Below, piece by piece: positions 11,553-36,237 of a stretch of 44,078 nt of DNA. The position numbers and the translations under genes are program-made. Within the stretch, counting starts at the first letter, position 1. Each line of letters begins with the position of its first letter. The DNA comes from Boseongicola sp. (GTDB lineage: Bacteria; Pseudomonadota; Alphaproteobacteria; Rhodobacterales; Rhodobacteraceae): assembly GCA_028824715.1 (NCBI GenBank), contig JAPPCV010000027.1, forward strand, positions 1 to 44,078, in the 5' to 3' direction. Below the pieces are notes generated by a model. That model made no database searches. It had not been told where the DNA came from and worked only from the letters and a program-made list of their open reading frames with translations.

Positions 11553-12277
11553 ACGACGCAATGCCGGGACGCCGTTGCGACACGATGCGACTCGGGCTGC
11601 CTCCTGCTTGGAGCAAAGTGCTTGGAATGGCGGGACCTGTTGCGGAAGCGCATGTCGGAAAGCTGCCGTTTGGTCGCTGACGGCAAACTGCAATTCCAAG
11701 GGTGCACAGGCCGCGAGCCCGGAAACGAATGTTCTTGGCGAGAACGTCCGGAATCTTGTCGCGGGAGACTATTGCCCTCTCTTCAGTCACGCTGTCGTCG
11801 TACCTCGCTGTTGACAGACACGCCAACGAGCGTGACATCCGGGAAGAGCACGACATCGGGCAGCGGGCGGTCTTTGACTTCGTCGAGCTTGGTCACGACT
11901 CCGGCCACTACAAAGTTTCGACCTGATCCGATCTGGTTGCTCGGCCTGCAGCAGACGCTGCGCCATGAAATTGAATGCACCCCTCACTTGCCTCGTTCCA
12001 GATCGATGAGCGTAGCGTGCCCAACCGGACCACGCGCGTTGCCGGCCCGGGAATTCCCGCATGAAGCGTCGCTCAACGATGATGACGCACAACGCTCAAT
12101 GGCGATTCAACATTTGACATCTTGCTGCTCGATCTTGATTGCGCGCGAGTCCTTCCGCGTTCCGGCTGAATCGGAACCCCCGCGCCGCCAAGCTCTCACT
12201 CTCCACTTCCCGGCACGATGTGCACTCGCATTTCAGTGCCCCCCGGCTCGTGGGCTCCACCGCGTTGCCAGCACTCT
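11553..12277. pseudogene. Gene debris downstream of the methyltransferase
   Basis: 725 bases with no intact gene. On the minus strand, protein-like fragments appear in shifting frames. One near 11785-11940 contains VVAGVVTKLDEVKDRPLPD and then VVLFPDVTLVGVSV; another near 12110-12230 contains ESLAARGFRFSRNAEGLARN. They follow the methyltransferase in the same direction, where a partner restriction enzyme would be expected, so a decayed partner is a reasonable but unproven idea. The fragments match no family I recognise. Confidence 0.3.
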
Positions 12278-13507
12278 CTATCGACGCTGCAACAAGGCAA
12301 TCCGGTTGGAATTGGTGCCCTTGGATCCGTTCGCCACACCCCAGCAGTTTGCCGTCTTGGTGAAGGTCTGGGCATTCACCATGACGCCGAGGCGTTTGAA
12401 CGGCAGGCCCTCGGCTGCCTGCCAGACCAGCCTTTCGAGCAGCACCTTGCCATTGCGGACCTCACCGACCTCGAACGCGACATAGCCCCCAGGACACAGG
12501 ATGCGGGCTTGCTCAAGCAGAACGCGGCGCACCATTTCCGTCCACGCACGTTCCGTGCGATGCATGTCGATCGCAATCGCGCCAGGGTCAATGCCCGCAA
12601 ACCAGCAACGCAACCAGTTGTCGGCAGCATATTTCACGATGTCAAGGAACGGTGGCGACGTGACAGTCAGCTTGACTACGCCATCGGGTATTCCTGGCAC
12701 TGCCCATGCAGCTCCGGCATGCAGGCTCGAGCGTGCCTGGCTTGGTGCGCAGCCGTCCCTGAGAAGGGACCTGGACTTCTTCAGGATCACCGCGGCGACG
12801 TCACGCTCGGGCGGAGAGAGGCCCAGTTTCTCGTTGATCCTGAGTTGCGCCTTGACGGACACGGCCTGGTTCGGAGGCATCGAACGACCCGAGAAGAATC
12901 CGGCGGAATGCCCGGAGAGCCGGTTGATCGCCACCATGCGAATCCAGTCAGCAACCGGTTCAACATCATCGGCATCAAGGGGCGCACGCTCCGCAATCCA
13001 AATCCGCAACGCTTCCAGCTTCCTGAGCGTCGCCGGGTGGTAGAATGCGAGCAGGTCTTCTCGTTCCAACTCGCCCCGCGACCAGTCGACGGACTTCAGC
13101 GCGGCATCCACCGCCCGAAGTGAGATCGCACGCAACCTGGGCCGCGTGAGCAGGACTGACAGCGGGTTGATGTCATTGCCGTATGCCTGCCGCCGCATCA
13201 GCGCGGCCTGCAAGGGAGTCGTGCCTCGCCCCATGAAAGGGTCGAACACGATGTCGTCTGGCTTGGTAAGCCGCGCAATGAAGAACTCGGGCAGCTGCGC
13301 CTTGAAACACGCCCGGTACGATACCTCGTGAATCGAGTGCGCCTGACGCTGCCCTGCCGACCAGAACTCGTTTGTCAGGTAGGGCACGCCATCCACGGTC
13401 TCGGCCACGGTGCCTTGGCCGAAATCATCGAACCTGGCAAGCTGGTCGATGAAGATCTCGGAAGTTTCGGCAAACTGGGCCTGTTCGAATAGGGAGAGTT
13501 GGTTCAT
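12278..13507 (-). CDS. Site-specific DNA methyltransferase (amino-methylating)
   Basis: A 409-residue methyltransferase acting on adenine N6 or cytosine N4. The SAM-binding motif FDPFMGRGTT is at 88-97 and the catalytic TSPPF (variant of TSPPY) is at 283-287, with about 185 residues between them that can hold the target-recognition domain. This order (motif I before IV) differs from classical beta-class enzymes. ATG at 13507 is preferred by its normal N-terminus (MNQLSLFEQ); an in-frame ATG at 13534 is possible. No intact restriction endonuclease lies beside it, so it is an orphan or the survivor of a lost system. Confidence 0.85.
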   Translation of the reverse strand: MNQLSLFEQAQFAETSEIFIDQLARFDDFGQGTVAETVDGVPYLTNEFWSAGQRQAHSIHEVSYRACFKAQLPEFFIARLTKPDDIVFDPFMGRGTTPLQAALMRRQAYGNDINPLSVLLTRPRLRAISLRAVDAALKSVDWSRGELEREDLLAFYHPATLRKLEALRIWIAERAPLDADDVEPVADWIRMVAINRLSGHSAGFFSGRSMPPNQAVSVKAQLRINEKLGLSPPERDVAAVILKKSRSLLRDGCAPSQARSSLHAGAAWAVPGIPDGVVKLTVTSPPFLDIVKYAADNWLRCWFAGIDPGAIAIDMHRTERAWTEMVRRVLLEQARILCPGGYVAFEVGEVRNGKVLLERLVWQAAEGLPFKRLGVMVNAQTFTKTANCWGVANGSKGTNSNRIALLQRR

Positions 13508-25436: not shown

Positions 25437-25489
25437 TTCTGGTGCCCCCAGAGAGACTCGAACTCCCGACCCCCTGATTACAAATCAGA
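25437..25489. repeat. attL, 53-bp copy of tRNA-Thr 3' end
   Basis: Identical to 35287-35339. It contains the CCA end, T arm and anticodon region of tRNA-Thr in reverse complement, but the D arm and 5' half are missing, so this copy is the displaced chromosomal 3' end. Confidence 0.92.
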
Positions 25490-25615
25490 GTTTTTGGGTT
25501 TTCTGCCGTGTCCCGCCTTGTCTCAAAATGTTTCTCAATGCACTGTTTTACAACGTTTTTCAGAGATGCAAGTTACTCGTTGCGTCCCTGCGCGTCCCGG
25601 CGTATTCTGGCCGTG

Positions 25616-25636
25616 TGCTGACATAGTGCTGACACG
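25616..25636 (+). repeat. Left integrase arm-site candidate (21-bp repeat)
   Basis: Two TGCTGACA words separated by TAG, plus a final CG; identical and in the same orientation at 35202-35222. It lies 126 bases inside attL and ends 10 bases before the integrase ATG, so a bound integrase could also repress its own gene. Confidence 0.7.
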
Positions 25637-25646
25637 GGAGAGGGAA

Positions 25647-26825
25647 ATGGCACTCACAGAGAAGAAGATTCGGGACGCAAAACCCGGCGAGAAAACCCGG
25701 ATCGAATGGGATACAACCGTCAAGGGACTTGGCTTGCGGATCACCCCGGCCGGGGCAAAGGCATTCATCCTGAATTACCGAATCGACGGGCGCGAGCGCC
25801 GCGCCACCATTGGCAGGCCGGGCGAGCTTGCCCTTGCCGATGCCCGCGAACTGGCGGGCCGGGAACTGGCCGCGATCCGTCAAGGCGAAGCGGACCCGCT
25901 GGCCCGGCGCGAGGCCGTCAAGGCGATGCCGACCGTTGCCGATGGCATGGCCGCTTTCTTCGACTCCTACGTGCCGGGCCGCATGGCAGATGGTCGCATG
26001 TCTGACCGGACGGCGCAGGAATACACTTGGCAGTGGAAGCGCATAGCAAAGGCCGCGCCTTGGTTTGCGGCGCTGCGCATTGAAGCCGTGACTCGCGGCG
26101 ACGTTGAGCGGGTGCTTTCCGGTCGGAAGCCGGTCGACCGCAACCGCAATCTCGCTTTCCTGAGTCGCGTGTTCCGGTACTTTGAATTGCGCGAGTATCG
26201 CCCGCAGAATGCGAACCCCTGCCGCCTGATCGAGAAGGCCAAGGAAGTGCCGCGCGATCGCGTCCTGACACCGGCCGAGTTGCAAGCCCTGGCCGCGTCC
26301 CTGACTGCGCTGGAGAGCGCCAAGGGTGCGGACCCGTTCCCCATTGCCGCGATCCGGTTCCTTACCCTGACCGGCTGGCGAGCGGGCGAGGCGGTGTCCC
26401 TGCTATGGGAGCATGTCAGCTTCGACACCGGCGAGATTGTCCTGCCGGACACCAAGACCGGGCGGCAGGTGCGCAAGGTCGGAGTCGACGCGCTTGACTT
26501 GATGAAGGCACTGCCGCGCCTGAACTCGAACCCACATGTCTTCGCCGGGCACTACGGCGGGGGGATCGGATACAAGCGTTTGCGACAGGTTTTCAGGAAG
26601 GCTTGCGATGCGGCCGGGATCGCGGATGCCCGGCTGCACGACCTGCGCCGGAGCGTGGCGACCTACGCGGCCGCGAGCGGGCTGTCAGTCACGTTGCTGC
26701 GCGACCTGCTAGGGCACAAGACCCTGAACATGGCCGCGCGGTATGCCCGCCGGGCCGACTCGGCACTGCATCAGGCGCAGGACGAAAGCGCCGCGCGGAT
26801 GGCCGCGATGATGGCTGGCGAGTAG
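25647..26825 (+). CDS. int: P4-type tyrosine integrase
   Basis: A 392-residue site-specific recombinase. Residues 1-90 are the DUF4102 arm-binding domain (LTEKKIRDAKPGEKTR..., DGRERRATIGRPGELALADAR), about 100-185 the core-binding domain and about 205-380 the catalytic domain. Catalytic residues R245, K270, H331, R334, H357 and Y366 are all present (LTGWRAGE, DTKTGR, LHDLRRS, LGHKTLN, RYAR). A longer frame starts inside attL, but ATG 25647 with GGGAGAGGG upstream begins the canonical domain. It should integrate the element into tRNA-Thr. Confidence 0.95.
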   Translation: MALTEKKIRDAKPGEKTRIEWDTTVKGLGLRITPAGAKAFILNYRIDGRERRATIGRPGELALADARELAGRELAAIRQGEADPLARREAVKAMPTVADGMAAFFDSYVPGRMADGRMSDRTAQEYTWQWKRIAKAAPWFAALRIEAVTRGDVERVLSGRKPVDRNRNLAFLSRVFRYFELREYRPQNANPCRLIEKAKEVPRDRVLTPAELQALAASLTALESAKGADPFPIAAIRFLTLTGWRAGEAVSLLWEHVSFDTGEIVLPDTKTGRQVRKVGVDALDLMKALPRLNSNPHVFAGHYGGGIGYKRLRQVFRKACDAAGIADARLHDLRRSVATYAAASGLSVTLLRDLLGHKTLNMAARYARRADSALHQAQDESAARMAAMMAGE

Positions 26826-26963
26826 AGAGACGCGCAACGCCATTGACGGACACTCCGGGAAACCGGTAAGAGGGGGGCGGTAGCGATCCGTCCCCCCAAT
26901 CGTTCACGCCGCTATTCGCCGACGGGTCAAGGCGCGGACTCCGCAAGACAGGAGACCCGCGCC

Positions 26964-27158
26964 ATGCTTGAATCCGGCAAGCTCTACGACACGAACGACC
27001 TTCACGAAGCATTGGGAGTCCCGGTGCGCACATTGCGCAACTGGCGACACTTGGGGCGCGGCCCGGCGTACCACAAGATCGGCAGCATTTGCTATTACCG
27101 GGGTGCGGACGTGAACGCATGGCTTGCCAAGAATCGAGTCGAGCCAACCGCCGCCTGA
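26964..27158 (+). CDS. AlpA-like helix-turn-helix regulator / excisionase
   Basis: A 64-residue protein made of one MerR-type (HTH_17) helix-turn-helix: LYDTNDLHEALGVPVRTLRNWRHLGRGP, then the wing YYRGADVNAWLA. In P4-like elements and PICIs, AlpA-type proteins activate the integrase/excision genes; excisionase activity is equally possible. CAGGAGA precedes the ATG. The 138-base gap from int carries nothing else I recognise. Confidence 0.82.
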   Translation: MLESGKLYDTNDLHEALGVPVRTLRNWRHLGRGPAYHKIGSICYYRGADVNAWLAKNRVEPTAA

Positions 27159-27172
27159 TTCCCAAAAAGCAA

Positions 27173-27207
27173 CCGCCGCGCGGGGTCCGATCCCATGTGC
27201 GCGGCGG
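27173..27207. promoter_or_regulatory. GC hairpin between alpA-like and wHTH genes
   Basis: CCGCCGCGC and GCGCGGCGG form a perfect 9-bp stem around a 17-base loop, ending 20 bases before the next ATG. Without a T-run it is more likely a translation- or RNA-stability structure than a terminator. Confidence 0.4.
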
Positions 27208-27227
27208 CTTCAGAAAGGATCCCGTTC

Positions 27228-27635
27228 ATGGCACGAATCGCCAAGAAACGCAAGAGCACGGAACCGGACAGTTTCCCGGCCCGGTTCAAGCAGGGACTCG
27301 AGGATTCCAGTCTGCCTGAAGGGGCGCGGCACTTGGCGCGGTACATGAGCGACCACGCACACAACCCAGTTTTTCCTAGGGCAATCTGGCATTCCATCGA
27401 CTCGATGGCGAAGGCAACGGGAATGTCGCCTTCGACCGTCAAGCGACACAAGCGGACCTTGGAGCAATGCGGCGTGATCGTGAGCACACGTCGGAATGAC
27501 GAGTACGGACACCGCACAAGCGACCGGGTCGAGCTTCAGGAACCTTTCGAGGGGAAGGCTTGTCCATCATGTGGCAGGGAATGGGCTTGGAGGTCCCGGC
27601 CCGGCGACTGTCCAAAGTGTCAAAATGACCTCTAG
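27228..27635 (+). CDS. Winged-helix DNA-binding protein with C-terminal zinc ribbon
   Basis: A 135-residue protein. Residues about 55-100 form a helix-turn-helix (SIDSMAKATGMSPSTVKRHKRTLEQCGVI) like those of phage replication initiators and DnaD-like proteins; residues 112-131 form a CxxC...CxxC zinc ribbon. The ATG at 27228 with AAAGGATC is chosen over an upstream frame start. Its stop codon lies inside the first of two palindromes, so it is the natural candidate to bind them, as replication initiator or as repressor. No primase or helicase is encoded in the element. Confidence 0.7.
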   Translation: MARIAKKRKSTEPDSFPARFKQGLEDSSLPEGARHLARYMSDHAHNPVFPRAIWHSIDSMAKATGMSPSTVKRHKRTLEQCGVIVSTRRNDEYGHRTSDRVELQEPFEGKACPSCGREWAWRSRPGDCPKCQNDL

Positions 27636-27692
27636 GTCAAATTGACCTAGAGGTCAAAATGTGCCGGTCCTAGGGGTCAATTTGACCTAGGA
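27626..27692. promoter_or_regulatory. Twin palindromes, candidate satellite origin or operator
   Basis: First: TGACCTCTAGGTCAA, a central A, then its exact complement (27626-27656). Second: an imperfect palindrome at 27668-27692. Both centre on GGTCAA(A/T)TTGACC (27635-27647 and 27675-27687), with centres exactly 40 bases apart, so on the same face of the helix. They are followed by tandem GAAGATAGAAG words (27691-27701 and 27703-27713). The arrangement fits iterons of an origin or a cooperative operator. Confidence 0.65.
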
Positions 27693-27781
27693 AGATAGAA
27701 GGGAAGATAGAAGATTCTCTAGCGGCGCAGGGATTGGAACCCGGACTCTCCAGTTGGTACGTGCCGGGCGGTTTTGAATAC

Positions 27782-27803
27782 GGGTCAGTAAGACCCATTT
27801 TTT
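27782..27803 (+). terminator. Candidate intrinsic terminator
   Basis: GGGTC-AGTAA-GACCC stem-loop followed by A and six T residues. It would separate the regulatory block of the satellite from its head-gene block. The stem is short (5 bp). Confidence 0.5.
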
Positions 27804-27807
27804 GGTG

Positions 27808-27824
27808 CTTACAAATCCTGTAAG
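27808..27824. promoter_or_regulatory. Inverted repeat before head operon, candidate operator
   Basis: CTTACA-AATCC-TGTAAG, a perfect 6-bp dyad, ends 9 bases before the ATG of the first gene of the head block. Its position suits a regulator of late gene expression; the protein that binds it is unknown. Confidence 0.45.
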
Positions 27825-27833
27825 CTACCGGAC

Positions 27834-28310
27834 ATGGACGTTTCAATCAATGGAAACCGCGTGGACCTTGACCAATGGGTGGCCGAACAGGAGGCCGCCT
27901 TTCTGGAGCTTTGCGGCTACAGCGTTGCCAACGGCGACGGCTACGGCGACGCGATCCGCGTGGCGGTGACGCCCAAGGTCACGGCCATGCTTTGGGGGCG
28001 GGACCGGGCGCGATACCGGCAACTTGCGTTGCAGGGCCGCCTTGGGGTCGTGCGGGTGGACTTCGGAATCGGCGGCGAGGGCACGTGCTACAGCCTTGCG
28101 GACCTGCGGGCCGAGTACGGCGACCCGCCGTCCAAGTTTGCGCCCGCCGCTTCCATGATCGGGAACATGGGCAACACGGGGAAGAAGTTTCCCGGCACGA
28201 ACACCTTCAAGCCCCTCCATACCCTTTGGGTGATCCTCCACACGACTCACGCCCAGGACGCATTTGGCGATCTGGCCTTTGACTTCACAAGAAAGGAAAT
28301 CGAGCAATGA
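27834..28310 (+). CDS. Unknown protein at the start of the head operon
   Basis: 158 residues, no family recognised. Mixed alpha/beta composition without membrane helices or signal peptide; an acidic helical N-terminus (DQWVAEQEAAFLELCGYSVA), then a central strand-rich part and a C-terminal half rich in Thr/His/Phe. The stop overlaps the capsid start by ATGA, so it is made with the capsid. Position suggests a head-assembly, size-determination or late-control role; that is inference from context only. Confidence 0.7.
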   Translation: MDVSINGNRVDLDQWVAEQEAAFLELCGYSVANGDGYGDAIRVAVTPKVTAMLWGRDRARYRQLALQGRLGVVRVDFGIGGEGTCYSLADLRAEYGDPPSKFAPAASMIGNMGNTGKKFPGTNTFKPLHTLWVILHTTHAQDAFGDLAFDFTRKEIEQ

Positions 28311-29614
28311 TCGCGAGCCAAAAAATCCAACTGCGCCAATCCGAAATCCGGCAACGCCTCGGTGAGATCGCCGGGCTTGAGGGCGACGATTATTCGGACG
28401 AAGTCAAGGGCGAGGAAACGAAGCTCCAAGGCGAGCTCCGGGAGAGCGAACAGCGCCTGCGAACCGCGCTCACTGTCGAGGCCGCCGAAGACGAAGCGGC
28501 GAAGAAAGAGGCCGAGCAACGCGGCGACAATCAGCTTGACGCGGAAGCCCGCGAGAAGGCCGAGCTACGCTCCAAAGCGACCTTGACCGGATACTTTCGC
28601 GCCGCTGCAAATGGCCGTCTCGTGACGGGTGCCGAAGCCGAATTTGCCGCCGCCTGCGGCGTCGAGGGGATCCCGCTGGAAGTCTTCGAGCCGACTGCCG
28701 AGGAACGGAAGGCCGAAGCCGAGCGCCGGGCCGTCACGCCCGCGCCGGGCACGGTCGGGGTGAACCTTGACCCGATACGCCCGGCCGTCTTCGCGGCTTC
28801 CGTTGTGCCGCGCCTTGGCGTGGACATGCCGCGCGTGCCGTCCGGCACGTTCGCAAGCGGAACCGTGACGGGAAGCGCCGTCGCGGCCGCGAAGGACAAG
28901 GGCGCGGACATTGATGCGACGGCGGGCGCGATCACGGTTTCGACTTCGACCCCGAAGCGTATCAGCGCCCGGCTTGAACTGGCGATCGAGGACATTGCCG
29001 CCGTGGGTCAGGAGAACTTTGAATCGATCTTGCGGCAAAACCTGTCACTGGCGCTTTCGGACGAACTGGACGACCAGGGACTCAACGGCGACGGGCAAGT
29101 TCCGAACCTTGCCGGTCTGTTCAACAAGCTGACCGATCCAAACGCTCCGGCGGCGGGGGTGATCGCCTTCGATGGATTCGTCGGCACGTTTGCGGACGGG
29201 ATCGACGGGCTTTGGGCGACGGTGGCGAAGGACGTTGCAATCGTGGCTGGTCCTGACACCTACAAGCTGGCCTGCAAGACCTTCCGGGACGCTGCCGGAC
29301 AGGACCTGGGCGACGTGAGCTTTGCCGACTATGCCATGCAGCACTACGGCGGTTTCTGGACTTCCAAGCGGATGCCGGACAAGGCCGCGCACATCCAGCA
29401 AGGAATCCTCTACCGCAAGGGCCGCTCCGGCATGGGTGCCAGCATGGGCATGCGTACGGCCGTCTGCCCGCACTGGGGCGAGGTCAGCATTGACGACATC
29501 TATTCGGGCGCGAAAAGCGGGACTCGATCCTTCACGATGCACGTCCTGCTTGGCGACGTGATCCTTGTCCAGCCGGACGCCTATGCGCAAGTGAGCTTCC
29601 GCGTATCCGCATGA
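28307..29614 (+). CDS. HK97-fold major capsid protein with N-terminal scaffold domain
   Basis: A 435-residue capsid subunit. Residues 1-90 are a highly charged coiled coil (delta/scaffold domain), followed by a linker and the HK97-fold domain from about 140 (RPAVFAASVVPRLGVDMPRVPSG ... ARLELAIEDI ... LDDQGLNGDG ... AQVSFRVSA). The nearby prohead protease would remove the scaffold during maturation, probably between about 100 and 145. The complete length argues that the element makes its own heads. Confidence 0.9.
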   Translation: MIASQKIQLRQSEIRQRLGEIAGLEGDDYSDEVKGEETKLQGELRESEQRLRTALTVEAAEDEAAKKEAEQRGDNQLDAEAREKAELRSKATLTGYFRAAANGRLVTGAEAEFAAACGVEGIPLEVFEPTAEERKAEAERRAVTPAPGTVGVNLDPIRPAVFAASVVPRLGVDMPRVPSGTFASGTVTGSAVAAAKDKGADIDATAGAITVSTSTPKRISARLELAIEDIAAVGQENFESILRQNLSLALSDELDDQGLNGDGQVPNLAGLFNKLTDPNAPAAGVIAFDGFVGTFADGIDGLWATVAKDVAIVAGPDTYKLACKTFRDAAGQDLGDVSFADYAMQHYGGFWTSKRMPDKAAHIQQGILYRKGRSGMGASMGMRTAVCPHWGEVSIDDIYSGAKSGTRSFTMHVLLGDVILVQPDAYAQVSFRVSA

Positions 29615-29629
29615 TGGGGAGGCGTTGTC

Positions 29630-29908
29630 GTGGCTTCGCAAGACGTGACATGCAGCGCCGTCCCGGTCGCGGTCGAGGACGAGGCGGCGCTTGTTGACGG
29701 CACGAGCTACACGCTGGGGAATTCAAGCCGCGACAAGGCGATTTTCTGGCGCACTGCCGTCGCCGCTCCGGCAAGCGGATCGGCGGGCAACGTCCTGCCG
29801 CCATTCCGCTCCGAGACGTTCAAGTACGTTGACGACTCTTCCGGCGAAAAATTCTGGGTCTGGACGGATGGCGGCGAGGCCGTCCTGGTCGTGACGGAGG
29901 CGGCATGA
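29630..29908 (+). CDS. Small capsid-associated protein (possible decoration protein)
   Basis: 92 residues, beta-rich, beginning with GTG at 29630 behind a good GGGGAGG site. No family recognised with certainty. Location between capsid and protease genes, small size and lack of charge clusters fit a head-decoration or head-stabilising protein. Stop overlaps the protease start as ATGA. Confidence 0.65.
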   Translation: MASQDVTCSAVPVAVEDEAALVDGTSYTLGNSSRDKAIFWRTAVAAPASGSAGNVLPPFRSETFKYVDDSSGEKFWVWTDGGEAVLVVTEAA

Positions 29909-30873
29909 ACGAGCGGCGCAACTCTGGCGAGGTTCGGCTTGCCGGGCGGACCCTGACCGGCGTCGTTATGGCCTATGGCGACGTGTCGCCGGAGCATTCC
30001 GAGCGATTCCTGCCCGGAGCCTTCGGGCCGGAGCCAAGGGCCGCGCTGGACGTGCAGCACGACCCGTCCCTTATCGTCCTGCCCGCCGAGCGCGTGGCGC
30101 TCACTGACGGCCCGGAGTCGCTCATTCTCCGGGCCGACCTGCCTCCGCGCAGTGGCGCTCATTCCCTTGTCCAGAGGGGGGCGCTCAACGGGCTATCAGT
30201 CGAGTTTGTTTCGCAAGCCGAACACCGGGACGCTTCCGGGGTGCGAGTGATCGAGCGGGCAAATCTGATCGGAATCGGGCTGGTCGACAGTCCGAGCTAC
30301 CCCGGATCGACGGTCGAGGCACGGCGCGGGCTGGGGCGGCTCTTTTCGATGCGCGGCGCGATCCCGACCGGCAAGCGGGTCGCCTGCCGGTGCGGACCCG
30401 GCGACTGCGTATCGGCATTGTTCAAGCAAGGGTCTTTCCGGTCGCTCACTGCCGCCGCTATCGCGGATGATGACGATTTGGTTGACGAAGTGCTTGCCGT
30501 GGTCGGCGACTATTCCGCGCCTGTCGCGTCCCGCAAGCGAAAGTCGGTTCGCTTCTGGAATGACGGCGACGGCAACCTGCAATGGGCGGTGGACGTGCCG
30601 GATACGGCAAGAGGGCGGGCGCTGAAAGAGACAATCGAGTCGGTCGACGTTCTGGCCCGGCCCGTCATGGACATGCAGCGTTCCAAGTGGGTCCGGGAAG
30701 GCACTACGGCGATCTACGCGGATGCCCAAATCCGGGCGCTCACAATCGGCGCGACGGATGCCGCCGAGGGGTGGACCCCGGCATACGTTCGAAAGGCCGC
30801 AAGCGATGACATGCCTGAGCGATCAACGGCGCGTCCAGTCGCAACCCGGCGGGCGGCGCTATGGCGGCTCTGA
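29905..30873 (+). CDS. HK97-type prohead protease with degenerate second domain
   Basis: 322 residues, about twice the usual protease domain. Residues 1-140 form an S78 prohead protease with His52 (QHDPS) and Ser98 (LNGLSVEF) as the catalytic pair and the usual IGLVDSPSYPGS end. A cysteine cluster follows (CRCGPGDC, 161-168). Residues about 213-297 resemble the first domain again (WAVDVPDTARG..., IRALTIGATDAAEGW) but the serine position reads VLARPV and no matching histidine is seen, so this half looks inactive. It matures the capsid by removing the scaffold. Overlaps the next gene by 13 bases. Confidence 0.85.
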   Translation: MNERRNSGEVRLAGRTLTGVVMAYGDVSPEHSERFLPGAFGPEPRAALDVQHDPSLIVLPAERVALTDGPESLILRADLPPRSGAHSLVQRGALNGLSVEFVSQAEHRDASGVRVIERANLIGIGLVDSPSYPGSTVEARRGLGRLFSMRGAIPTGKRVACRCGPGDCVSALFKQGSFRSLTAAAIADDDDLVDEVLAVVGDYSAPVASRKRKSVRFWNDGDGNLQWAVDVPDTARGRALKETIESVDVLARPVMDMQRSKWVREGTTAIYADAQIRALTIGATDAAEGWTPAYVRKAASDDMPERSTARPVATRRAALWRL

Positions 30874-31283
30874 GTCCCTTTCCCCCGGCCACAAGCGCGG
30901 CAACGCGGGCAACGGCAATCGCGCGGATCAGGAGAACCGTTGCCGGTGTCGGAAACATCCAGACAGAAGGCATTGCCGAAGCCGACATTCCGGCGGCAGT
31001 CGATGAGCGAATCGGAGAGCTTGGCGACATGGCTTCGGCGCTGGTCGAGCGCCACGCGCCGGACGCGCCGCAAGCGATCCGTGACGAAGCAATGGTACGC
31101 CTGATCGGATGGCACATTGCCCGCGAACCGCGGGCCCAGGACGCGGTTGAAGCCGGGCCGGTGACGATCCGCAATGCCCGCGACCGGAACCCGACACCGA
31201 ACGCGCTAACCAACTCCGGCGCGAAGGCGTTGCTTCAACCGTGGCGAAGACGCCGCGCCTTGCCGGTCGAGGAGTCGAGCTGA
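30861..31283 (+). CDS. Head-tail connector (HK97 gp6-like)
   Basis: A 140-residue mostly helical protein. The C-terminal NALTNSGAKALLQPWRRRRA closely follows the NALRxSGAxxLLxPWR ending of phage gp6-like connectors, and the central helix pair (EAMVRLIGWHIAREP) fits. It would form the ring beneath the portal that accepts a tail. In a satellite without tail genes this is the docking face for helper-phage tails. Confidence 0.75.
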   Translation: MAALSPFPPATSAATRATAIARIRRTVAGVGNIQTEGIAEADIPAAVDERIGELGDMASALVERHAPDAPQAIRDEAMVRLIGWHIAREPRAQDAVEAGPVTIRNARDRNPTPNALTNSGAKALLQPWRRRRALPVEESS

Positions 31284-32407
31284 TGCGCTTGCCGTGGACA
31301 AGATCCAAACCGAATCGGCGCTCCGGCGCGGTAGGCTACACAGCCAGTCTGACAGCCGCGCTGGAAGCCGGAGCCAGTGGCGCGGCGTCGGACACCGCGC
31401 CACTGGCGACAGCCGCTCTTGAAGCCGCTGCGAGCCTCTATGCCCGGTGCCTGGCCGCCGCGACCGTGAAAGCGCAACCGGCGCTCCGGGACGCGCTGAC
31501 TCCCGGCGTCCTGTCCCTGATCGCCCGCAACTTGATCCGGCGCGGCGAAGATCATCACTTGATCGAGGTCCGGGACGGCAACCTGCACCTTTCGCCAGTC
31601 GGCTTCGCGTACGCGACCGGCGGGCCGGACCCGATGGCGTGGCGCTACTCGATCACGCGGTACGGCCCGACCGATTCCGTTCATTCATGGGTAAGGGCCG
31701 CGCAACTCGTGCACTGTCGATATGCCGTCGACTCGTCGCGCCCGTGGCTTGGCGTCCCGCCCTGGTCCTGGTCCGGCACGACAAGCGGCGCTATCGCGGC
31801 ACTCGATGCGCTGGTTCGGGACAAGGCCAAGGCGCCACACGGCGCGATCCTTGGCGTACCGGAAAGCCCGGAGATCGATAAAGGCGAAGACGGCGAAGAT
31901 GGCGAGATTCGCCCGCTCGATGCCTTCCGGCAGGACTTGGCAAAGGCGAAGGGCGGAAGTCTATTGGCCGAGCATTCGGCCAAATGGCTGGACGATCAAC
32001 CGGGCCAGCCCGGTCGCTCGATGATCGAGCACGTCCCTTTCGGCTTCCCGATTGCCGAAGCCGATGCGCTGAGAACGGCAGTGGGTCGCGACGTGCTGGC
32101 CGCTTGCGGGGTGCCGCCGTCCCTTTTCGTCGCCAACAGTGACGGCACGGCGCAACGCGAAGCCTTCCGCCGGTTCCTGCATTCGAGCCTGCGGCCGCTG
32201 GCGCGGATCATGGAAGCCGAATTGACCCTGAAACTGGACGCGGCCGTTGCGCTGGACTTGTCCGAAATCAATGCCGCCGACGTCGCGGGCCGGGCGCGAG
32301 CCTTCAAGCAACTGACAGAGGCCGGGCTGGACCCGGCAGACGCTGCGGCCAATACCGGCGTTGTGGTCACTCGCCCGTTGCGGACGGAAGGCGACGGCGA
32401 CGAATGA
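31283..32407 (+). CDS. HK97-family portal protein
   Basis: 374 residues from the ATG at 31283, which is joined to the connector stop as TGATG and has GGAG upstream. Portal features: an N-terminal region leading to LYARCLAAATV, the central DPMAWRYSITRYG strand area, the crown-side IEHVPFGFPIAEADALRTAVGRDVLAACGVPPSLF and REAFRRFLHSSLRPLARIMEAEL. It makes the dodecameric DNA gate at one capsid vertex and docks the terminase. Confidence 0.88.
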   Translation: MRLPWTRSKPNRRSGAVGYTASLTAALEAGASGAASDTAPLATAALEAAASLYARCLAAATVKAQPALRDALTPGVLSLIARNLIRRGEDHHLIEVRDGNLHLSPVGFAYATGGPDPMAWRYSITRYGPTDSVHSWVRAAQLVHCRYAVDSSRPWLGVPPWSWSGTTSGAIAALDALVRDKAKAPHGAILGVPESPEIDKGEDGEDGEIRPLDAFRQDLAKAKGGSLLAEHSAKWLDDQPGQPGRSMIEHVPFGFPIAEADALRTAVGRDVLAACGVPPSLFVANSDGTAQREAFRRFLHSSLRPLARIMEAELTLKLDAAVALDLSEINAADVAGRARAFKQLTEAGLDPADAAANTGVVVTRPLRTEGDGDE

Positions 32408-32595
32408 GCGGCTTGATCCCATACGCGGGGAAGGAACGCCGGGGAATTGTGGACAGCAAGCCAGGTACTCGGGCGGATCGGGCCAGCGCACGGCTCAAGA
32501 TCGGTGCGCGCAAGTGTGCCTCATGCGGCAAGCGGTTCACGGCGACGGCGCAACGCCGGATGCTTTGTGCCGTTTGCTTTGCGAAAGGAGACTGA
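32404..32595 (+). CDS. Small zinc-ribbon protein
   Basis: 63 residues with CASCGKRFTATAQRRMLCAVC, a CxxC...CxxC zinc ribbon. Start overlaps the portal stop (ATGA). Function unknown; small zinc-finger proteins in packaging operons may bind DNA or the terminase. Confidence 0.7.
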   Translation: MSGLIPYAGKERRGIVDSKPGTRADRASARLKIGARKCASCGKRFTATAQRRMLCAVCFAKGD

Positions 32596-32598
32596 CCA

Positions 32599-32853
32599 AT
32601 GGTGAAACGCGCGGACCCGGAGCTTGCACAAATGCTGTCTGGCTTCGCGACTTTGGGAGCGGCCAGACAGTGCGTTGGCTTGATGCCGCTGACCCGCGAG
32701 GAATGCGCCCGGATGATCGAGGCCGGACTCGAGGATGACGGACTGCGGATCGGGCGAGTGCTTGAACTCATAGACGCCGAATTGGCGCTCTTGGAGACGC
32801 CTGCACATGCCCGCGAAGCGACCTGCGGCCCTACCACCCTGCGGCTGCACTAG
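32599..32853 (+). CDS. Small helical protein, possible small-terminase candidate
   Basis: 84 residues, mostly helical (DPELAQMLSGFATLGAARQCVG; LTREECARMIEAGLEDDGLRIGRVLELIDAEL). Three bases after the preceding stop, with GGAG before the ATG. No recognised family; its place just before the large terminase gene makes it the best candidate for a DNA-recognition (small) terminase subunit, but it lacks an obvious helix-turn-helix. Confidence 0.55.
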   Translation: MVKRADPELAQMLSGFATLGAARQCVGLMPLTREECARMIEAGLEDDGLRIGRVLELIDAELALLETPAHAREATCGPTTLRLH

Positions 32854-32972
32854 GCGGCGCTGTACGGCACTCTGAGAGCCGCTGAGGGGCAAGGGGACCC
32901 CTGCCCGGAAACGGGCGCGAAATGCCTAGGGGGCGATGGGGGGGTCTTCTTCTCACAGGAAAAGGGGCCGGA

Positions 32973-34409
32973 ATGGACCTTTTGCCGTTTCAGCGCCGGT
33001 TTCTCACGGCGGCGCTTGCGCCGGGGATCGACATTGCCGGGTTGAGCCTGCCCAGGGGCAACGGGAAATCGACCCTGACCGCGCACCTTGCCAAGCGGTT
33101 CCTGACGCCGGGCGATCCGCTGCACGTCGCGGGCGCGGAGGCTCACATTGTCGCGGCTTCGATTGGGCAGGCCCGGCGCACTGTCTTCAAGCAACTGCGC
33201 AAGCTGATTGGCGACGATGACAGTTACCGCGTGGCAGAGTCGATCAACAATGTGCACGTCACGCACAAGGCGACTGGCACTCGAATTTCCGTGCTGGCCG
33301 CGAACGGCAAGACGGCGCAAGGGCTGGTCGATGTTCCTTTCGTTTTCGCGGATGAGCCGGGAAGCTGGGAACTGGCGGGCGGTCAAATGGTCTGGGATGC
33401 GGTCGAGACTGCCTTAGGCAAGCCCGATAGCGACATGCGGATTCTTCTGATCGGGACGCTCGCACCTTTGGGACTGCCGGGGCACTGGTGGCACAATCTT
33501 GTTGGTGACGGCTCATGTGCAGGGGTGCACGTAACGGCGCACATGGGCAATCCCGAAAAGTGGGATAACTGGCCGAACATCCGGCGCTGCAACCCGCTCA
33601 TGTCGCGCTTCCCGAAGTCCCGGCAGACGTTGCTCAAGGAGCGCAACGCGGCGCGGGCGGATACGCGGCTCAAGGCGCGGTTCCTGTCGTATCGCCTGAA
33701 CGTGCCGACTGCCGACGAGTCGGAAGTCCTGTTGACGGTCGACGATTGGCAGGCGGTATGCCGGCGACCGGAAGCGTTGCCGGCGGGCCGGCCCATTGTG
33801 GGGATCGACCTTGGCGCGGGCCGCGCATGGTCTGCCGCCGTCGCAATGTGGAAGTCCGGGCGGGTCGAGGCTTTGGCGGTCGCGCCGGGGATCCCCGACC
33901 TGGCCGCGCAAGAGAAGCGCGACCGGGTTCCTGCAGGTACGTATCAGCGCCTTGAGGACTCCGGATCGCTCCGGGTGGCGACTGGCCTGCACGTCCAGCC
34001 GCCTAAGCAACTGGTCGGGTTGATCGCGGACACATGGGGCAGGCCGGACAAGGTGCTTTGCGACCGGTTCCGGCTGGATGACTTGAAGGATTGCCGGACG
34101 GGCTGGAACCTTGTGCCGCGCGTCACACGGTGGAGCGAGGCGAGCGAGGACATACGCGGCTTGCGCAAGATGGCGAAGGACGGGCCGCTATCGTGTCCGA
34201 AGTCGAGCCGGTCGATACTCAAGGCTTCCCTTGCGGCGGCGCTTGTCCAGCCCGACGACGCGGGCAATTGCCGACTGGTCAAACGCGGCTCGAACAATCA
34301 GGCGCGGGACGATGTTGCGGCGGCGCTCGCATTGGCGGCGGGCGAGTGGGCGCGGCAAGCCGCGAAGCCTGCCCGGAAGCGCGGCGCGTACGTGGGATTG
34401 GTCCAGTGA
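32973..34409 (+). CDS. Terminase large subunit
   Basis: 478-residue DNA-packaging motor. ATPase: Walker A-like LPRGNGKST (26-34) and Walker B VFADEPG with D127/E128. Nuclease: RNase-H-like domain beginning VGIDLGAGRAWSAA (D279) and ending RDDVAAALALAAGEW. ATG at 32973 is supported by AGGAAAAGGGG just upstream; the longer frame lacks homology. Full length with intact motifs, so the element can package DNA into its own heads. Confidence 0.9.
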   Translation: MDLLPFQRRFLTAALAPGIDIAGLSLPRGNGKSTLTAHLAKRFLTPGDPLHVAGAEAHIVAASIGQARRTVFKQLRKLIGDDDSYRVAESINNVHVTHKATGTRISVLAANGKTAQGLVDVPFVFADEPGSWELAGGQMVWDAVETALGKPDSDMRILLIGTLAPLGLPGHWWHNLVGDGSCAGVHVTAHMGNPEKWDNWPNIRRCNPLMSRFPKSRQTLLKERNAARADTRLKARFLSYRLNVPTADESEVLLTVDDWQAVCRRPEALPAGRPIVGIDLGAGRAWSAAVAMWKSGRVEALAVAPGIPDLAAQEKRDRVPAGTYQRLEDSGSLRVATGLHVQPPKQLVGLIADTWGRPDKVLCDRFRLDDLKDCRTGWNLVPRVTRWSEASEDIRGLRKMAKDGPLSCPKSSRSILKASLAAALVQPDDAGNCRLVKRGSNNQARDDVAAALALAAGEWARQAAKPARKRGAYVGLVQ

Positions 34410-34690
34410 GCCGGAAGCGGCCCGGATCGCGGCACTTCGCGGCGCTGGACAAGGCGACGTGGGCGCGGGCGCGGCTGGCCTGCCTGCAACGTGACGGCTA
34501 CAGGTGCAGACGGTGCGGCAAGGCGTCAGCGCTCGAGGCGCACCATGTCACCCCGCTTGAGAAGGGCGGCGCGGCATACGACCTTGCGAACCTGGAGGCG
34601 CTCTGCCGGGGGTGCCATATCGAGGAACACCGGCCCGCGTTGTCGCCTGAACGGGCGGCATGGCGGAAACTCTTGGAGGAAACGACATGA
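34406..34690 (+). CDS. HNH endonuclease
   Basis: 94 residues from a GTG that overlaps the terminase stop (GTGA). HNH core: CRRCGKASALEAHHVTPLEKGG, then DLANLEALCRGCHIEEH, with two CxxC zinc pairs. In HK97-like phages an HNH protein next to the terminase is needed for cos cleavage and packaging, so this points to a cos-type element. Confidence 0.88.
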   Translation: MSRKRPGSRHFAALDKATWARARLACLQRDGYRCRRCGKASALEAHHVTPLEKGGAAYDLANLEALCRGCHIEEHRPALSPERAAWRKLLEETT

Positions 34691-34959
34691 CACAGAAAGC
34701 CCGCATTCTGGCTTCGCTCGATGCTCTGATCGAGCGGAAAGCGGACCAGATCGCGCAGGACGTTTTTGAGGACGTGGTTGAGAACACGCCGGTTGACACC
34801 GGGCAGGCCAAGCGCGGGTGGCGACGGTTCACGGATGAACGCGGGGTGCGGCACGTCGCGAATCCGGAGCATCACATCCTGCAACTGAACCGCGGATCGA
34901 GCACGAAGGCTCCGGCGGCTTTCGTCCAAGGTGCGATTGCGAAGGCGCTCCGGCGCTGA
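34687..34959 (+). CDS. HK97 gp10-like head-tail joining protein
   Basis: 90 residues starting at 34687, ATGA-joined to the HNH gene. VENTPVDTGQAKRGWRR, then NPEHHILQLNRGSSTKAP and FVQGAIAKAL follow the gp10-like neck/tail-completion family. It is the last gene of the head operon and the most tail-ward protein the element encodes. Confidence 0.75.
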   Translation: MTQKARILASLDALIERKADQIAQDVFEDVVENTPVDTGQAKRGWRRFTDERGVRHVANPEHHILQLNRGSSTKAPAAFVQGAIAKALRR

Positions 34960-34980
34960 AAAAGGGGTCACATGGCCCAA

Positions 34981-35187
34981 TTAGGTCGGGGCGTCTTTTG
35001 CCAAATGCTCGCCGCACCAGTTGTCGAAGATCGTAATTGCAGACGTAAACTCTGGCTTCTGCACATCGCCGTCTTGAGTGAACGAAACCACCGGCGGATA
35101 GCGGTGGCACTTGCCCGCGATGCCGGAACCTTCGGGCTCGAAAAAGTGGCAGGTGTCGCAGGTTTCCTTTTCCCGATTGGTGCTCAT
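34981..35187 (-). CDS. Small cysteine-rich protein, opposite strand
   Basis: 68 residues with CDTCHFFEP, GKCHRYPP and a final WCGEH, a likely metal-binding fold seen in many small phage-encoded proteins of unknown role. Has its own ribosome site (AAAGGAA). Being convergent with the head operon and close to attR, it is probably separately expressed accessory (moron) cargo. Confidence 0.65.
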   Translation of the reverse strand: MSTNREKETCDTCHFFEPEGSGIAGKCHRYPPVVSFTQDGDVQKPEFTSAITIFDNWCGEHLAKDAPT

Positions 35188-35201
35188 GTCTAATTCCTTT
35201 C

Positions 35202-35222
35202 TGCTGACATAGTGCTGACACG
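35202..35222 (+). repeat. Right integrase arm-site candidate (21-bp repeat)
   Basis: Exact copy of 25616-25636 in the same orientation, 64 bases inside attR. In the excised circle the two copies would flank the attP core at 64 and 126 bases, the layout of integrase arm sites. Confidence 0.7.
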
Positions 35223-35286
35223 ACGGCGAATCACTTTCTCTGACTCTTCCCGGTCTTGTCCTTAAAGTCCTTGTTTTATTGGATTT

Positions 35287-35339
35287 TTCTGGTGCCCCCA
35301 GAGAGACTCGAACTCCCGACCCCCTGATTACAAATCAGA
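35287..35339. repeat. attR, 53-bp repeat within tRNA-Thr
   Basis: Identical to 25437-25489. Here it is part of an intact tRNA gene, so the element supplied the tRNA 3' end and integration restored the gene. Confidence 0.92.
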
Positions 35340-35365
35340 TGCTCTACCAGCTGAGCTATAGGGGC
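35290..35365 (-). tRNA. tRNA-Thr(TGT)
   Basis: 76 bases including an encoded CCA. The acceptor stem GCCCCTA pairs with the 3' strand, the D arm carries AGCTGGTAGA, and the anticodon loop TTTGTAA has anticodon TGT for ACA codons. The T loop is TTCGAGT. It is the integration site of the satellite; its 3' 50 bases come from the element. Confidence 0.95.
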
Positions 35366-35609: not shown

Positions 35610-35873
35610 GTGCCTCATCAATACACACTTCGCGACGCGAAGGCTCGCCTGTCCGAGTTGTTGGACCTTGCGGCTGCGGGAAGTGTCGTCGAAATAACCC
35701 GGCAGGGGGCCAAGAGGGGACGGTTCAAATTGGTCTCGATGGACGGAGCGTTCGGTCAGCGTCGGCCAGGCGCACTGAAGGGGCGAATCGTGATTCCAGA
35801 GGCGTTCGACGACGAAGACCCGGACATCGTTGCTGACTTCGAAGACTTGAGGTCCAGTGCGGATTCTCGTTGA
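35610..35873 (+). CDS. Phd/YefM-type antitoxin
   Basis: 87 residues. The N-terminus YTLRDAKARLSELLDLAAAGSVVEITRQG is the Phd/YefM DNA-binding fold; the acidic C-terminal tail (DDEDPDIVADFEDL) would wrap the toxin. GTG start at 35610 with GGAG upstream. Overlaps the toxin gene by 17 bases. Located 244 bases outside attR, so it belongs to the chromosome side and not to the satellite. Confidence 0.85.
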   Translation: MPHQYTLRDAKARLSELLDLAAAGSVVEITRQGAKRGRFKLVSMDGAFGQRRPGALKGRIVIPEAFDDEDPDIVADFEDLRSSADSR

Positions 35874-36237
35874 TACACAGGCCCTGCTCTGGTGGCTGAT
35901 GGATTCGGAGAGGCTTGGACCAAAGGCGCGGCGCATCTTCCTGTCGGACGAACCCGTCATCAGCGCGGTCGTGCTGTGGGAAATCGCAATCAAGGTCAGC
36001 CTCGGGAAGCTCTCAGCGGACGTCGCCGAGGTGAGCAGAGTCATCGCCGAACAGGGTCTTGAGCGACTTGGCATCTCGGACCGGCACATGATCAACCTGC
36101 AAGCCCTGCCCTTTCATCATCGCGACCCGTTTGACCGAATGCTGATCGCGCAGAGCGACGCCGAGGACCTGCCCCTTCTGACTTCGGACGCAAAAATCGC
36201 GCTCTACGATGTAGCAACTGTCGACAGCACAACATGA
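35857..36237 (+). CDS. vapC: PIN-domain toxin (VapC family)
   Basis: 126-residue PIN ribonuclease. Acidic catalytic residues are seen in ILVDTQALLWW (D6), VLWEIAIK (E), DPFDRMLIAQ and LTSDAKI. GTG start with GAGG upstream, overlapping the antitoxin end. VapC-family toxins cut tRNA or rRNA; the target here is unknown. Confidence 0.87.
   Translation: MRILVDTQALLWWLMDSERLGPKARRIFLSDEPVISAVVLWEIAIKVSLGKLSADVAEVSRVIAEQGLERLGISDRHMINLQALPFHHRDPFDRMLIAQSDAEDLPLLTSDAKIALYDVATVDSTT

Follow-up and report, generated by a model that had tools for sequence, protein, structure and literature searches.

A probable capsid-forming phage satellite at a tRNA-Thr gene of Boseongicola sp. and its relatives in Alphaproteobacteria

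The draft genome of Boseongicola sp. (Rhodobacteraceae; assembly GCA_028824715.1, 5.24 Mb, 98 per cent complete) includes a contig of 44,078 nucleotides, JAPPCV010000027.1, which was analysed as one entire contig and is called the window below. Positions 25437–35339 of the window carry an integrated element of 9,903 bp, counting both attachment (att) copies, with genes for a phage-type head and for DNA packaging. What kind of element is this: a satellite that builds its own head and relies on a helper phage for the tail, the wreck of a prophage, a self-sufficient small virus, or a head gene cluster kept by the host? We put the probability that it is an integrated capsid-forming phage satellite, with its own small head and a tail borrowed from a helper, at about 0.8. 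A preliminary description, made from the sequence alone, had proposed this reading, and it is supported by the anatomy of the element, by its att and empty sites and by the recurrence of such elements at about 10 kb.

Integration site and gene content

The element is bounded by a perfect 53-bp direct repeat, attL at 25437–25489 and attR at 35287–35339, with a spacing of 9,850 bp. The right copy makes up the 3' portion of an intact tRNA-Thr(TGT) gene on the reverse strand (35290–35365), the only tRNA gene predicted by ARAGORN in the window, and the left copy duplicates its 3' end. An exact empty site was found in three of the seven congeneric genomes searched (G199, G201 and G202), where the left flank runs through one att copy (53 of 53 bases) directly into the right flank and the same tRNA-Thr(TGT) gene is intact. 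In three others (G203, G198 and G200) the tRNA, 50–53 att bases and the right flank align, with little or none of the left flank; the seventh (G204) gave no match to either flank. The att repeats and the congener junctions establish the integration and the empty site, and the exact ends of the preliminary description are confirmed. Just inside both ends there is a second perfect direct repeat, of 21 bp (25616–25636 and 35202–35222), each copy of which contains TGCTGACA twice; these inner repeats could be arm-binding sites of the integrase.

There are 15 open reading frames (ORFs) in the element, covering 9,062 of its 9,903 bases, all on the forward strand except the last. The head module starts with an HK97-fold major capsid protein of 435 aa with a long N-terminal helical region (28307–29614). 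Its match to PF05065 (E = 2.1e-4; 21.3 bits) is below the curated Pfam cut-off of 24.2 bits. An AlphaFold2 model built from 42 homologues reaches a pLDDT of 79.9 and shows the HK97 fold, and its Foldseek matches include HK97, roseophage R4C, capsids of gene transfer agents (GTAs) and encapsulins. A 92-aa protein with a GTG start (29630–29908; best match phrog_29447, of unknown function, E = 0.0046) lies between the capsid gene and that of a prohead protease of the S78 type (29905–30873, 322 aa; PF04586, 1.4e-7; phrog_80, 3.4e-10; TIGR01543, 4.5e-8, below cut-off). The next gene codes for a head–tail connector of 140 aa (30861–31283), which hhalign aligns with the protein found between protease and portal in the relatives (probability 85.8, E = 5.3e-6); one of three members of this connector group scanned matches the head–tail adaptor family phrog_442 (1.4e-4). 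The portal protein (31241–32407, 388 aa) has homologues in the relatives and matches PF04860 at 1.1e-7, again below cut-off (31.9 against 39.1 bits).

Two small proteins separate the portal from the packaging genes. The first, of 63 aa (32404–32595), is zinc-ribbon-like by weak matches and has similar counterparts after the portal in two relatives (L044 and L248); the second, of 84 aa (32599–32853), lacks any match and is a candidate small terminase by position alone. The large terminase TerL (32922–34409, 495 aa) is of the HK97 type (phrog_9, 3.5e-40), and a comparison of its family profile with solved structures hits a terminase large subunit, 6z6d (6.6e-71); its Pfam nuclease match stays below cut-off (20.5 against 24 bits). 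It is followed by an HNH endonuclease of the packaging module (34406–34690, 94 aa; PF01844, 9.5e-11; phrog_589, 5.9e-17), which adjoins TerL in most relatives and also matches phrog_4581, a family labelled terminase small subunit (7.9e-11). The module ends with an HK97-gp10-like neck protein, Neck1 or tail completion, of 99 aa (34660–34959; phrog_169, 2e-9; PF04883, 0.0076, 17.6 bits against a cut-off of 21.4). Against these sub-threshold Pfam matches stand the PHROG support for TerL and the HK97 fold of the modelled capsid. The set, previously described as apparently intact, comprises capsid, protease, connector, portal, TerL, HNH protein and neck protein; a small terminase was not recognised in its own right.

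No tail gene other than that of the neck protein and no lysis gene was recognised among the 15 ORFs, which were compared with PHROGs and Pfam and, for 10 of them, with NCBIfam. The same ORFs include no recognised spike or fibre protein and no membrane protein or holin-type hydrophobic segment (maximum 19-residue hydropathy, 1.27). The element had been described as devoid of tail, lysis and repressor genes. No lysis or repressor gene and no tail set was indeed recognised, the neck gene at 34660–34959, a connector on the tail side, being the part of the claim that did not stand; the unassigned ORFs yielded no tail or lysis match beyond it.

The left part of the element codes for integration and regulation. 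The tyrosine integrase (25647–26825, 392 aa; Phage_integrase, 7.6e-19; Arm-DNA-bind_3, 2.9e-14; phrog_1, 9.6e-56) is proposed to start at the ATG at 25647, in a frame open from 25431. An AlpA-like excisionase or regulator of the HTH_17 type (26964–27158, 64 aa; PF12728, 2.5e-10; phrog_66, 6e-9) follows, so that both proteins named in the preliminary description are backed by family matches. A winged-helix protein of 146 aa (27195–27635) is a candidate replication initiator of the Rep/O-like type (phrog_270, 6.7e-8; phrog_678, 8.1e-7; HTH_36, 1.7e-6); a PADLOC scan of seven proteins gave just weak HTH matches, to this one. At the end of its gene (27632–27690) inverted-repeat and pattern searches found two 13-bp palindromes, GGTCAAWTTGACC, at 27635–27647 and 27675–27687, candidate operator or origin sites. 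The winged-helix matches and the exact palindromes agree with what had been described, and the rarity of the motif is just mild: with up to two mismatches it occurs three times, and 4 of 100 shuffled sequences reach three or more.

Two further ORFs have no assigned function. A 158-aa protein (27834–28310) is without Pfam, PHROG, NCBIfam or PADLOC match, and its single-sequence fold was uninformative (pLDDT 35). A Cys-containing 68-aa protein on the reverse strand (34981–35187) matches phrog_15838 (4.2e-4), a family of unknown function. Outside the right att site, at 35610–36237, there is a pair consisting of a Phd/YefM-type antitoxin (below the Pfam cut-off) and a PIN-domain toxin.

Relatives of the element

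Capsid matches at E ≤ 1e-3 are present in 18 of the 198 genomes of the family, the source genome included. Seventeen regions were taken from 16 of the 17 other genomes. In 16 of these regions TerL is accompanied by the portal; most of the 16 also have HNH protein and capsid, and an integrase and att repeats at a tRNA are frequent. The remaining region (L035) has a capsid fragment alone. A scan of GTDB contigs with a TerL alignment revealed a relative encoded in 224 stretches, 80 of which were kept for analysis, and IMG/VR contains at least 438, of which 80 were also kept. Alignments were needed for this: viral contigs scanned with the window capsid as a single protein gave no relative. Some loci are common to both collections, and 155 of the 175 loci with a TerL ORF have distinct TerL C-termini.

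As far as titles could be recognised, 78 of the 80 GTDB relatives bear alphaproteobacterial names: Paracoccus, Rhodobacter, Roseovarius, Salipiger, Sulfitobacter, Rhizobium, Sphingobium, Ponticaulis, Reyranella and others. The two exceptions (L042 and L044) come from bins titled Acidobacteria and Bryobacterales, which may reflect a wide host range or misbinning; we draw no host claim from them. Among 398 genomes of the phylum, the capsid profile matched four outside the class at E ≤ 1e-10, always in long frames of 505–738 aa.

The relatives bounded by such repeats are of nearly the same size. TerL and portal were present together at 95 loci of 12 kb or more; eight duplicates were dropped, and 51 of the 87 distinct loci have flanking repeats of at least 16 nt that overlap a tRNA gene. 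All but one of these tRNA-bounded relatives (50 of 51) span 9,317–11,731 bp; over the full set of 51 the median is 10,600 bp. The repeats lie at 17 tRNA isoacceptor types, of which Asn (14), Cys (9) and Phe (7) are the commonest.

Eleven att-bounded relatives were chosen by hand, and all of their 142 ORFs of at least 70 aa were scanned against PHROG and Pfam. There are 23 Pfam families at E ≤ 1e-3 among these ORFs, none of them a tail or lysis family. In 71 of the 83 non-core ORFs, 17 PHROG families were found, and the structural ones (head–tail adaptor, head closure, Ad1 and Neck1/tail-completion) are neck or connector parts only. Of the 12 non-core ORFs left out, one is at a connector and one at an HNH position; the others are mostly long, lie upstream of TerL and were interpreted as replication genes.

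The relatives usually show the gene order TerL-HNH-capsid-protease-portal, and their integrase may lie on either side of it. The order of the window, capsid-protease-portal-TerL-HNH, recurs in only one (L042) of 177 tabulated loci; the contig of another (L061) begins with the portal. In the viral contig L247 the order capsid-protease-connector-portal-neck-TerL recurs. A quick IQ-TREE phylogeny of TerL has 86 rows, of which 78 are from distinct genome loci, one is the window and seven come from the 105 matching phage records. A branch with an SH-aLRT value of 99 separates the 79 satellite rows from the seven phage rows. The window forms a group of four with L042, L043 and L044 (support 100), and the 75 others lie outside it. 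Close relatives of this type are few: IMG/VR has six for TerL and two for the capsid, and among 292 genomes of the order the source genome alone encodes this TerL type at E ≤ 1e-60. Judged by its TerL, the window element belongs to a second lineage that is deep and rarely encountered and has a gene order of its own.

Identical ends mark four metagenomic contigs with the head genes as circular: L249 (9,236 bp), L252 (9,410 bp), L254 (9,391 bp) and L143 (9,970 bp). L143 belongs to the main lineage. L249 and L252 share the TerL type of the window (51 and 57–61 per cent identity), with capsids just 26–31 per cent identical to that of the window. L254 shares the window capsid type: its capsid and that of the related contig L253 are 47 and 57 per cent identical to the window capsid, and their TerLs score higher against main-lineage TerLs. 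The window-type capsid stands beside a main-lineage-like TerL at L253:3684–7078 and L254:2504–6216. On the basis of this mismatch between TerL and capsid types, the two satellite lineages have probably exchanged capsid and terminase modules. None of the four circular contigs matches the integrases of the family, and some members may therefore be episomal.

Relation to phages and alternative explanations

The head-side proteins of the element were compared with 50,697 phage records by tblastn. At E ≤ 1e-3 no record matches TerL, capsid, portal, protease or connector. The neck protein, with four records, is the only one of the six proteins tested that finds a match. At E ≤ 0.1 it finds 45 records, including five Roseobacter phages and one Ruegeria phage; Ruegeria phage Tedan (3e-5) and Stenotrophomonas phage Sonora (5e-5) appear in this search and are missing, for reasons left unexplained, from that at E ≤ 1e-3. 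Roseobacter phages had been considered as helpers because of the neck match; the case is weakened, none of the four records at E ≤ 1e-3 being a Roseobacter phage. For the main lineage, represented by L116, TerL matches 105 phage records, many of the HK97 type (best identity about 30 per cent), and the capsid matches nine at 24–29 per cent identity. These patterns fit a head module long separated from phages and a tail-facing part that is still phage-like, the 99-aa neck protein being thin evidence for the latter.

The source genome was searched at E ≤ 1e-3 for three families. There is no match to PF05065 or PF04860 beyond those of the element and none to PF10145 (tape measure), so that no resident HK97-type parent prophage is seen. 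We take GTA capsid genes to match PF05065; if so, there is no GTA capsid gene among the matches in this genome either. Going by these three families, a helper would have to reach the cell from outside or represent another type.

The best surviving alternative, an unlikely one in our estimate, is that the element is a deletion derivative: what is left of a siphophage prophage, decaying in place after the loss of its genes for tail, lysis and regulation. All recognised genes are of phage type, HK97-type heads usually belong to siphophages, and two members of the family (L016 and L018) contain stop codons. A wreck of this kind agrees poorly with the perfect att repeats and open reading frames of the element. 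Nor does it agree well with the same gene set at near-equal size at many tRNA sites, with closed circles in metagenomes and with the lack of any phage record matching the five head proteins named above. A one-off deletion is not what the relatives look like, with 50 of 51 independently integrated, tRNA-bounded loci at 9.3–11.7 kb and circles of the window's TerL or capsid type at 9.2–9.4 kb.

We give still less weight to a self-sufficient minimal or tailless virus, or a transfer particle, that enters cells without a helper tail. The circular relatives without integrase may live as free replicons, and there are few neck genes in the window, as this explanation would have it. Portal, connector and gp10-like neck proteins are nevertheless the tail-docking parts of tailed phages, and the element has no recognised spike, fibre, lysis or membrane protein. 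Least probable of all is a GTA-like or encapsulin-like head cluster domesticated by the host: the capsid fold is similar to that of encapsulins and of the GTA capsid, a similarity that other HK97 folds share, but the element is bounded by att sites, absent at this locus from three congeners, equipped with integrase and AlpA, and patchy in the family, as the 18 of 198 genomes with a capsid match indicate.

As a capsid-forming satellite, the element would work as follows. The integrase and the AlpA-like protein would insert it into tRNA-Thr and excise it again. On infection by a tailed helper, excision would be followed by replication, presumably through the Rep-like protein and the palindromes. 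An HK97-type prohead of its own would be assembled from capsid protein, protease and portal, and TerL with the HNH protein would package the genome of about 9.85 kb, probably at a cos-like site. The connector and the neck protein may then close the head and present a docking face for helper tails, and the helper would lyse the cell. Integration rests on the att and empty sites, the head of its own on gene content and fold, and self-packaging on gene content, whereas excision and tail docking are inferred; together these steps make up the cycle described for capsid-forming islands.

Several observations weigh against the satellite reading. On the side of the element itself, no helper phage was identified; no repressor that would sense a helper, and none of the Stl type, was recognised; none of the 15 ORFs was recognised by PHROGs or Pfam as a small terminase in its own right; and five short ORFs (158, 92, 84, 68 and 63 aa) are without clear function. 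In the TerL tree a branch with support of 97 joins the phages and the four rows of the window lineage against the other 75, in a tree whose long branches leave the deep order unsure.

The relatives contribute further points. A weak match to a major tail protein (E = 0.0049) occurs in L044, a member of the TerL lineage to which the window belongs, and L016 and L018 have the stop codons mentioned above. No att repeats were found in 36 of the 87 relatives, and repeats more than about 20 kb apart are invisible in the fetched loci, so that larger relatives would be missed. One bounded relative, L051 from Rhodobacter capsulatus DSM 1710, measures 16.2 kb (16,209 bp) and has two integrases inside. 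Two broader PHROG scans show 25 of 101 and 25 of 94 families, which makes rare tail genes possible; the second covered 93 of 159 listed ORFs from 14 of 16 loci, and 17 from L247–L249 and L251–L254.

Two of these loci call for a description of their own. In L051 (2086–18355) the 61-nt repeats lie 16.2 kb apart, and a tandem pair of elements at one tRNA is possible. In L044 the ORF with the weak tail match (11753–12358) stands just before the capsid gene; a tail-tube-like protein would be odd in a satellite.

Comparison with known satellites

The closest known systems are the capsid-forming phage-inducible chromosomal islands (cf-PICIs). These islands encode capsid, protease, portal, connectors, HNH protein and terminases (PMC10690885, PMC13230959), average 14 kb (PMC10803314, which also names their main hosts), have capsids that fall into three radiations (PMC11389934) and are called widely distributed across Bacteria (PMC10690885). 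Like the Escherichia coli island EcCIEDL933 and others, the window element is integrated, has its own capsid, protease, portal, connector, TerL and HNH protein, an integrase, AlpA and att sites, and lacks recognised tail or lysis genes, the neck protein being the sole exception and the five short ORFs remaining unplaced. It differs in being alphaproteobacterial and in having no recognised small terminase TerS or Stl-like repressor, and its likeness to EcCIEDL933 is taken from gene content. In the strict sense it is a candidate member of the published cf-PICI family.

Other classes fit less well. Canonical PICIs are capsid thieves that package their DNA into redirected heads of the helper, whereas this element has head genes of its own. 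A complete temperate siphophage is not expected at 9,903 bp without recognised tail, lysis and repressor modules, and the integrase, the att sites and the empty sites in congeners set the element apart from a GTA, a fixed cluster that is inherited vertically and has no integrase. HK97-type siphophages (HK97, HK022 and Rhizobium phage 16-3) share the TerL type (about 28–30 per cent identity with that of L116), the HK97 capsid fold, the S78 protease and the gp10-like neck protein. These phages, in contrast, are of about 40–60 kb with the order terS-terL-portal, whereas the satellites have TerL-HNH-capsid-protease-portal and the window capsid-protease-connector-portal-TerL-HNH-neck. Among solved structures, the one that the capsid family profile matches best in sequence is the capsid of roseophage R4C (PDB 8gta, 6e-10), a free marine siphophage; the similarity to the capsid family is distant.

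The cf-PISP satellite-plasmid TG54 of Vibrio crassostreae also has its own head genes, HNH protein and terminases, and may parallel the circular relatives; it is plasmid-borne and gammaproteobacterial, and is said to lack an integrase and to have a distinct tyrosine recombinase, whereas the window element is integrated (PMC13230959). The Streptomyces satellites MulchRoom and MiniFlayer are likewise small, with capsid and packaging genes and with helpers, and MulchRoom is thought to use helper tails. By their description they stand apart, having direct terminal repeats, virulent helpers, actinomycetotal hosts and no significant homology to PICIs (PMC10690885). Charybdis elements are unrelated by their own description (PMC12324425), and PMC10187409 and PMC11476347 deal with other elements.

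In the accessible parts of the open-licence literature searched, no description of a capsid-forming satellite in Alphaproteobacteria was found, and the term 'satellite' is absent from a survey of Rhodobacteraceae prophages (PMC8224337). The alphaproteobacterial radiation looks undescribed in that literature, while the cf-PICI kind itself is known; given the wide spread reported for cf-PICIs (PMC10690885), some of the alphaproteobacterial members may be in the lists of the paper that founded the cf-PICI class.

A wider proposal, which we advance tentatively and rate a little short of an even chance, is that Alphaproteobacteria hold an old radiation of capsid-forming satellites of their own. Its head genes would be without close phage counterpart, and head size would keep its genomes at about 10 kb. 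In this view the window element would stand for a second branch, deep by TerL and arranged in another gene order; capsid and terminase modules would have been swapped between lineages, some members would be circular and without integrase, and the neck would have been kept phage-like to fit helper tails.

Head-building satellites have been reported mainly from Gammaproteobacteria and Firmicutes. A large alphaproteobacterial family would place them among abundant marine and soil bacteria, and offers culturable hosts for studying how tails are borrowed across phage families and what sets the size of a 10-kb head. Many of the small 'prophages' in these genomes, those of about 10 kb, may prove to be satellites and not remnants.

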